In this document: positions 43,447 to 44,430 of the stretch, piece after piece | How the letters are laid out: each line of letters opens with the position of its first letter | How positions within the stretch are numbered: the first letter of the stretch is position 1 | Source of the DNA: Ignavibacteriales bacterium | Lineage (GTDB): Bacteria; Bacteroidota; Ignavibacteria; T3Sed10-11 | Length of the DNA: 55,805 bases | Direction of reading: 5' to 3' | Assembly: GCA_003562775.1 (NCBI GenBank) | Contig: PWTU01000501.1 | Coordinates: 1 to 55,805 of the forward strand | Notes under the pieces: model-generated | Told to the model about the DNA's origin: nothing | Seen by the model: the letters and a program-made list of their open reading frames with translations, nothing else | Database searches by the model: none | Made by a program: the position numbers and the translations under genes

Positions 43447-43458
43447 GGGAGAAAATCT

Positions 43459-43619
43459 GAAATCAGAAATTAGAAATCAGAAAAAAAGCAGTTTACTTGA
43501 AAAAAAAACGAATTGTTTGTATATTTAATATTCGGAATTCAGCAATGATGAAATCGTGGATTAATGGAAGAAGCAGAGTAGAATAATTTTCATATTTCCG
43601 ATCTCCTATTTCTGATTTC
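43459..43619. repeat. Inverted-repeat-bounded intergenic element (E) immediately upstream of tRNA-Phe
   Basis: Left GAAATCAGAAATTAGAAATCAGAAA; right arm reverse complement GAAATCAGAAATAGGAGATCGGAAA (about 21/25 identical); ends 4 nt before the tRNA 5' end. Confidence 0.6.
43497..43525 (+). promoter_or_regulatory. Candidate promoter for tRNA-Phe inside element E
   Basis: TTGAAA (43497-43502) - 17 nt - TATATT (43520-43525). Confidence 0.5.
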
Positions 43620-43623
43620 GCAA

Positions 43624-43696
43624 GGACAGGTAGCTCAGTTGGTAGAGCAATGGACTGAAAATCCATGTGTCGGCGGTTCAATTCCGCCCCTGTCCA
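43624..43696 (+). tRNA. tRNA-Phe (anticodon GAA)
   Basis: Acceptor GGACAGG/CCTGTCC, D-arm GCTCAGTTGGTAGAGC, anticodon arm ATGGA-CTGAAAA-TCCAT, T-arm GGCGG-TTCAATT-CCGCC. Confidence 0.97.
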
Positions 43697-43985
43697 CTGC
43701 ACTACACGTGTTATTACCGATACCATTTTAGTATGGCACAAATCCTTTATTTTCCACGGCGGAATCACTGCAAGTCATTCCGCCCCTGTCCACTGTAGTG
43801 CACGTCTAAGTTACAGACAATCATAAATTTACCACAAATCGTTTATACTTCCCGGCGGAATCACTGGAAGTCATTCCGCCCCTGTCCACAGCAGTACACT
43901 TCTAATTTACGAACAATCACAAATTTACCACAAATCGTTTATACTTCCCGGCGGAATCACTGCAAGTAATTCCGCCCCTGTCCAC
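43681..43985 (+). repeat. 96-bp-period tandem array derived from the tRNA-Phe 3' end (17-nt ATTCCGCCCCTGTCCAC x4 including the tRNA copy)
   Basis: Copies start at 43681, 43777, 43873, 43969; copies 2-4 each lie in a perfect 8-bp hairpin GGCGGAAT-N11-ATTCCGCC (43758-43784, 43854-43880, 43950-43976). Confidence 0.9.
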
Positions 43986-44047
43986 AGCAGTACACTCCTA
44001 TGTTGTGTGTTATTTTCAACCTATTATCAGAAATAAATTGAAAATAA

Positions 44048-44132
44048 AACCACAAGTCACTAAGTCTCTAAGTTTTTGATTAATAATATTTTACAATCAG
44101 TGTTTTCTTTGAGTCTTTGAGTCTTGGTGGTT
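44048..44132. repeat. Short inverted-repeat element (A), MITE-like
   Basis: Left AACCACAAGTCACTAAGTCTCTAAG; right arm reverse complement AACCACCAAGACTCAAAGACTCAAAG. Confidence 0.55.
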
Positions 44133-44430
44133 AATGTGGAATCACTGGAAGTAATTCTGATTTGGTGGAATAAAATGTCCTCTTCATTAACATGGCCCGT
44201 CCATAGTTAGTAGTATCCTTTCCTTGAGCCAAAAGTGATATTGGTCAAAGCAAAATTTTTTCCCCTTACTTATTGAAAGAATTAAATCGTAAGACTATAT
44301 TGAAAAACCGCCTGATTTTGATGAATTTTTGAACTCCCGTATATCATCGGGTTGTGGGGATTGGTTTTATTTGAACAACCGGGATAATTTTATTGTTGAA
44401 AATGACAACTAATAATAGCAGGAAATTCAA

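Follow-up and report, generated by a model that had tools for sequence, protein, structure and literature searches.

A tandem array of hairpin-armed tRNA-Phe 3′ ends in an Ignavibacteriales bacterium, probably an ORF-less relative of GIY-YIG nuclease elements at tRNA genes

No landing sites of integrase islands are better known than tRNA genes. Shorter repeats are also found behind stable RNA genes: the 178-bp repeats of Escherichia coli tyrT (rtT RNA, tpr) and the repeats downstream of rnpB are arranged in tandem, each with the 3′ end of the upstream stable RNA. SegB of phage T6 is a GIY-YIG enzyme that cleaves within tRNA genes, preferring the motif RAWTSGAAC, and causes the tRNA-segB locus to amplify in tandem through homologous recombination (PMC13096335). 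In fungal mitochondria, mORFs (Allomyces atp6; Glomus atp6, atp9, cox2 and nad3) are endonuclease ORFs inserted together with a new gene 3′ end; the upstream gene stays whole and its native 3′ end is displaced downstream (PMC3630166). Here, we describe an array behind a tRNA-Phe gene in a window of 55,805 nucleotides (the whole stretch of DNA that was analysed) from an Ignavibacteriales bacterium. We put the probability at about 0.66 that this array is an ORF-less member, amplified in tandem, of a GIY-YIG-nuclease-associated selfish family located at the 3′ ends of tRNA genes and, in one case, a tmRNA gene.

The array consists of three 96-bp units 3′ of tRNA-Phe, each closed by the exact last 17 nt of the tRNA. 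This 17-mer, ATTCCGCCCCTGTCCAC, starts at 43681, 43777, 43873 and 43969, spaced exactly 96 bp apart; these are the starts given in an earlier sequence-only reading, and TRF called an array at 43737-44004 with a period of 96 and 2.8 copies. Exact 17-mers at a fixed spacing cannot be chance. The tRNA-Phe gene itself encodes the first C of CCA, the rest of CCA not being encoded. The features of the array are as follows.

43624..43697, + strand: intact tRNA-Phe (GAA), the upstream boundary of the array (ARAGORN, Rfam RF00005)
43698..43757, + strand: spacer 1, 60 bp, with neither an ORF nor a GIY-YIG remnant
43758..43784, + strand: hairpin 1, GGCGGAAT-C-ACT-GCA-AGT-C-ATTCCGCC, in place of the T-loop in the tRNA copy
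43777..43793, + strand: tRNA-Phe 3′ end copy 1, 17 nt, exact; overlaps the hairpin 3′ arm, then acceptor 3′ strand CCTGTCCA plus C
43794..43853, + strand: spacer 2, 60 bp
43854..43880, + strand: hairpin 2, loop GGA
43873..43889, + strand: tRNA-Phe 3′ end copy 2
43890..43949, + strand: spacer 3, 60 bp
43950..43976, + strand: hairpin 3, loop GCA, C-A mismatch
43969..43985, + strand: tRNA-Phe 3′ end copy 3
44135..44161, + strand: degenerate fourth hairpin GGAATCACTGGAAGTAATTC, without an acceptor strand

The 27-nt hairpins share the consensus GGCGGAAT-C-ACY-GNA-RGT-N-ATTCCGCC. The sequence-only reading had seen them as perfect hairpins with an enlarged, T-arm-like loop. The hairpins are real, and that description can be refined. 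The loop is itself structured: next to an unpaired C, it has a 3-bp inner stem (ACT/AGT) that is closed by a GNA triloop. The 5′ arm is complementary to tRNA positions 58-65 rather than being a plain copy of the T-arm, and the third copy has an A instead of a C opposite the unpaired C. A search for the hairpin pattern with three or fewer mismatches returned 4 matches in the window, compared with 0.33 expected by chance. The degenerate hairpin at 44135-44161 is probably a decayed unit. The spacers of one array are copies of each other, not different sequences, and we rejected a CRISPR array on this ground. No GIY-YIG ORF or remnant was present in the window's own units, and the tRNA gave the only Rfam match above threshold. 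The four genes nearest to the array encode an acyl-CoA dehydrogenase, two SDRs and a histidine kinase.

Two other repeats lie close by. Repeats of the AAATCAGAAATTAGAAATCAGAAA type flank tRNA-Phe as an imperfect inverted repeat (43453-43480 and 43595-43619), and such repeats also occur upstream of tRNA-Phe in a second genome, G001 (L017). An element of the form CACTAAGTCTCTAAG ... TTTGAGTCTTTGAGTCTTGGTGG (44050-44137) separates the array from the degenerate hairpin, and a similar element lies 3′ of a tRNA-Pro(ggg) unit (L013).

To place the array in context, we compared six species of the genus, one genome each (G000-G005). These are Ignavibacteriales MAGs of 68-94% completeness, which limits absence calls; they were published under the names Ignavibacteriales or Bacteroidetes bacterium (CSSed and T3Sed isolates) and come from what we take to be soda-lake sediments. 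Hairpin units were present in all six. We surveyed 180 tRNA genes that were followed by 100 bp or more of sequence; 28 of them, belonging to 14 tRNA species, had an exact or one-mismatch copy of their own 3′ end within the next 400 bp, at distances of 78-392 bp; shuffled downstream sequence gave none. Units followed tRNA-Phe in every genome that could be read past the gene (three copies in G000, two in G004 and three in G005); in G001 the contig ends precisely where tRNA-Phe does, and G002 and G003 had no readable tRNA-Phe. Among the ways in which it might fail, the sequence-only reading had named absence of the unit beside tRNA-Phe in all close relatives and an assembly artefact. The result was the opposite in both respects: every readable relative (G004 and G005) had the unit, and these independent assemblies carry their two and three copies behind the same tRNA. 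Arrays of tRNA ends may themselves break assemblies, the G001 contig end being one example. Other contigs also have an end no more than about 100 bp from a tRNA gene (G001:C143, G000:C268, C442, C457, C509, C556 and others), in line with breakage at tRNA-end repeats.

The units are not confined to tRNA-Phe. Searching the window's own genome with the hairpin pattern yielded further matches, two of them behind tRNA-Pro(cgg) and tRNA-Pro(ggg), with stems matching those tRNAs and not tRNA-Phe; a BLAST search of the same genome with the 96-bp unit found only the window and one short match, the tRNA-Pro(cgg) unit. At other tRNA sites, including Ser-gga, Trp and Thr-tgt, a unit was present or absent depending on the species. 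Outside the genus, the loop-motif pattern gave no real matches: those among 294 genomes of the class were chance matches in coding sequence, and the search of GTDB species added four chance matches. No unit was found behind tRNA-Phe in other families of the class, and among 43 tRNAs from three other class genomes there was a single match, with two mismatches, at a tRNA-Gly in a tRNA cluster. ORF-less arrays do occur in another family of the class, behind tRNA-Ile: two tRNA-Ile(tat) loci (L378, G046:C2; L424, G028:C4) have units of ~71-76 bp in which the anticodon arm is replaced by TCCCGCC-GCA-GGCGGGA. Viral contigs had no tRNA-end hairpin; their matches, none beside a tRNA, look like chance. 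Two strains of Ruminococcus flavefaciens (L103, L111) share a GGCATGACCGNAAGTTATGCC hairpin that appears intergenic and is not beside a tRNA; it is either a chance pattern match or another repeat.

Further comparison revealed that the hairpin and the spacer behave differently. In the genus, each hairpin stem matches the T-stem of the unit's own tRNA. The compensatory changes that the sequence-only reading had proposed to look for are present in the stems: in a set of 21 distinct hairpins representing five tRNA species (including two, with a stem like that of tRNA-Pro, taken from the end of a G004 contig), the covariation score was 0.429, compared with 0.154 for shuffled sequences and at most 0.075 for slid partners, although part of this signal reflects the different tRNAs. 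In this set, 96.5% of cells were paired and 6 of 11 pairs had changes on both sides. The inner closing pair also changed from T-A to C-G between species at the same locus (Phe, Pro-cgg). In almost every Phe, Pro and Ser unit, 60-63 bp separated the tRNA end from the hairpin (the Pro-tgg spacer of G005 measured 69 as cut, the hairpin being longer there), but orthologous spacers mostly aligned no better than shuffled spacers. By contrast, the 19 nt of the hairpin 5′ arm and loop were mostly 79-100% identical between species in alignment rows that were in register; certain Ser and Pro rows, shifted in register, were left out of this comparison. A hairpin that is conserved while the spacers are not, and that is absent from any tRNA, must be either constrained or newly formed at each site.

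These observations bear on the possibility that the array arose by plain tandem duplication and decay of tRNA genes, the 3′ ends being homogenised by unequal crossing-over or gene conversion with no selfish element involved. Concerted evolution within arrays agrees with such an origin (units are identical in G004 and about 97% identical in G005), as do the copies at Trp, Arg and Gln that begin in the D or anticodon arm. We nevertheless regard it as improbable, because the conserved hairpin 5′ arm and loop occur in no tRNA, and because of the association with GIY-YIG genes and the tRNA-specific nuclease clades described below.

Some units of the genus contain a gene. In G004, small GIY-YIG proteins are encoded between the tRNA gene and its copy at tRNA-Cys (copy 392 bp downstream; PF01541, 63.6 bits) and at tRNA-Gln (copy 320 bp downstream; PF01541, 55.9 bits); degenerate GIY-YIG reading frames also lie 3′ of tRNA-Ser genes in G002. 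The genus has 24 PF01541 matches in total, 3 of UvrC size and 21 small, and 9 of the 21 small ORFs begin immediately behind a tRNA gene of the same orientation. The same was true of 12 of the best 28 GIY-YIG loci of the class, where we estimate that tRNA density would give well under one. Outside the class, one of 19 GIY-YIG ORF loci was linked to a tRNA (L401). For roughly half of the small ORFs, the stretch examined contained no tRNA; some of these are at contig ends and others are probably unrelated. At one locus (L354, G015:C72), a Group I intron (RF00028) adjoins a GIY-YIG ORF, which is an ordinary intron-homing arrangement.

Most of the tRNA-adjacent ORFs have a hairpin-bearing tRNA copy behind them. 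In this copy the 5′ acceptor strand is missing and a stable hairpin stands in for one of the arms (anticodon, T or D); the tRNA 3′ end is exact. We observed this architecture at tRNA-Ala, Val, Lys, Met, Asp, Pro, Asn and others. The hairpin takes the place of the anticodon arm in most class elements and sits at the T-loop in this genus. ORF-bearing units also form arrays: behind tRNA-Leu(cag) of a single-contig genome, there are five 450-bp units, each an ORF plus a hairpin copy, that match the first at 443-450 of 450 positions (L411, G164:C1:119500-122800). In another genome, two GIY-YIG ORFs stand in tandem behind a tmRNA gene, with a spacing of about 390 bp (L413/L370, G031:C44:92300-94300), with no exact tmRNA copy found between them.

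The association with a nuclease gene affects the interpretation of the array as RNA. The sequence-only reading had likened it to tyrT and suggested a role in tRNA-Phe 3′ maturation, termination or release of a small RNA; hairpin copies transcribed behind the tRNA might also offer alternative acceptor pairing. The parallel of tandemly repeated tRNA 3′ ends stands, since the array is real and structured. Folded as RNA, the region was far more stable than shuffled sequence (z -6.2), and the hairpin alone, folded as single-stranded DNA, gave z of about -3 to -5.5. The strength of the hairpins, the covariation, the GNA-type triloop and the invariable retention of the acceptor 3′ strand all speak for a function as RNA. 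So does the lack of a terminator between tRNA-Phe and the array: the scan found no T-run terminator at 43450-44430, spacers included, although it missed or misread terminators with loops over 8 nt. Judged by eye, however, terminator-like sequences lie between the tRNA and the copy at Pro(ggg) of G005, at Cys of G000 and G005 and at several ORF-bearing loci, which would normally leave the copy outside the tRNA transcript. In addition, the same kind of unit stands behind many different tRNAs and is absent from orthologous tRNAs of sister species, and elsewhere the unit is occupied by a nuclease gene, which points to a selfish element acting at the DNA level. An RNA-level role is thus unlikely in our judgement, and the suggested part in tRNA-Phe processing was not supported.

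Comparison of orthologous sites revealed different states of the same locus. The tRNA-Gln site is empty in G001, holds an ORF-bearing insert in G004 and holds an ORF-less remnant in G005, whose hairpin CCCCGCTTGAGCGGGG matches the G004 hairpin CCCCGCTTGGCGGGG; here, the ORF-less form most likely derives from the ORF-bearing one. At tRNA-Cys, G004 has the ORF-bearing form, and the units of G000, G001 and G005 are without an ORF. Both forms thus exist at one locus within the genus.

Occupied and empty sites, copies ending exactly at the tRNA end and the classic use of tRNA 3′ ends as att sites would also suit relics of site-specific integration by a tyrosine recombinase at the tRNA T-loop, the copies being attR sites of decayed or miniature islands. 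We consider this very unlikely, as the T-loop sequence needed for crossover is not kept in the copies, the elements measure only 78-450 bp, their sole recurring gene encodes a GIY-YIG protein, and none of the four genes nearest to the array has an integrase domain.

A tree of 32 nuclease domains, in which some forks are weak given the shortness of the proteins, required 13 changes of tRNA label; the minimum is 11, shuffled labels averaged 23.8, and none of 200 shuffles was as low. Five ORFs at tRNA-Asp from four host families formed a clade (support 97/89), and tRNA-Leu ORFs from inside and outside the class paired (98/88). The tree needed 15 changes by tRNA species and 18 by host family. Nuclease lineages in this tree follow the tRNA and not the host family. 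The elements share several features with homing elements: an endonuclease gene in the element (absent from the window's own units), a target-specific lineage, and occupied and empty sites.

Taking the array as an ORF-less member of a nuclease-associated family, we propose the following course. The complete form is an intact tRNA, then a GIY-YIG ORF of about 85-100 aa, then a 5′-truncated tRNA copy with one arm made into a hairpin and an exact 3′ end. The nuclease would cut the tRNA gene, and repair of the break by recombination through the duplicated tRNA 3′ end would insert or multiply the unit while leaving the upstream tRNA intact. The hairpin may shield the displaced copy from cutting or prevent it from adopting the fold of a competing tRNA. 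ORF loss would have left most of the Phe, Pro, Ser and Cys units of this genus at ~96-120 bp; such units would be maintained either by mobilisation in trans or by expansion through recombination between tRNA-end repeats. By our own reading, RAWTSGAAC is the reverse complement of the T-loop GTTCSAWTY; the window's tRNA-Phe has this motif as GTTCAATTC, with the S position relaxed, and the three copies lack it. We saw no ORF-bearing element at tRNA-Phe, and we infer the nuclease link to the ORF-less Phe units from their architecture and from the Cys and Gln loci.

Several observations sit less easily with this proposal. The T-arms of the frequently filled Phe, Pro, Ser and Cys tRNAs were identical in filled and empty genomes, and T-arm variation at Gln, Val and Met did not follow filling; recoding of the T-arm in filled alleles thus showed no consistent association with filling. 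With the upstream tRNA intact and not visibly recoded, a filled site would stay cuttable, which may account for the tandem arrays but makes a simple homing model less convincing. The proposal accounts for neither the fixed ~60-bp spacer nor the exact retention of the acceptor strand, and the difference in hairpin arm (T-loop in this genus, mostly anticodon elsewhere) does not fit. In a more specific version, a nuclease with its gene elsewhere in the genome would multiply the 96-bp units in trans; the units might be non-autonomous miniature relatives of a bacterial GIY-YIG tRNA-homing family, with hairpin arms adapted to each tRNA and with the ~60-bp spacer and GNA-looped hairpin needed for mobilisation. 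We advance it tentatively, as a possibility on the doubtful side.

Free-standing homing endonucleases and mobile ORFs that duplicate gene ends are already known. In the literature that we searched (open-licence papers), we found no report of bacterial elements combining tRNA, GIY-YIG gene and hairpin, and the chromosomal, tRNA-specific form that leaves a hairpin and has ORF-less tandem derivatives appears to be new. A minimal nuclease of ~90 residues seems to exploit tRNA genes in another way than integrase islands, leaving the tRNA whole and a hairpin-armed relic behind. If this is true, it would explain a large set of small GIY-YIG genes in Ignavibacteria and provide a natural series (empty, complete, ORF-less and tandem) for testing how homing elements live in essential RNA genes.

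Among the described systems, the tyrT and rnpB repeats are single loci that, to our knowledge, have no hairpin-replaced arm and no link to a nuclease. We rejected the array as a tyrT-type repeat, as its unit is 96 bp and not 178 bp, has no tpr-like ORF and has no Rfam match above threshold besides tRNA. Tandem genomic islands at tRNA genes likewise repeat tRNA 3′ ends, whereas the present units span 78-450 bp and have no integrase. The mORFs, with an endonuclease ORF and a duplicated gene 3′ end, are the architectural model; however, they reside in mitochondrial protein genes, their inserted 3′ end is diverged and foreign, and they have neither hairpins nor ORF-less tandem arrays. SegB and the other Seg free-standing GIY-YIG homing endonucleases of T-even phages resemble the present elements in having a nuclease gene beside tRNA genes. 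They belong to phages, whereas the present elements are chromosomal and comprise many lineages, each tied to one tRNA, and neither a hairpin-armed tRNA copy nor an ORF-less array is known to us from the work on SegB (PMC13096335). By analogy, SegB is the nearest experimental model for the proposed mechanism, and the elements described here, if our reading is true, would be its chromosomal counterpart.
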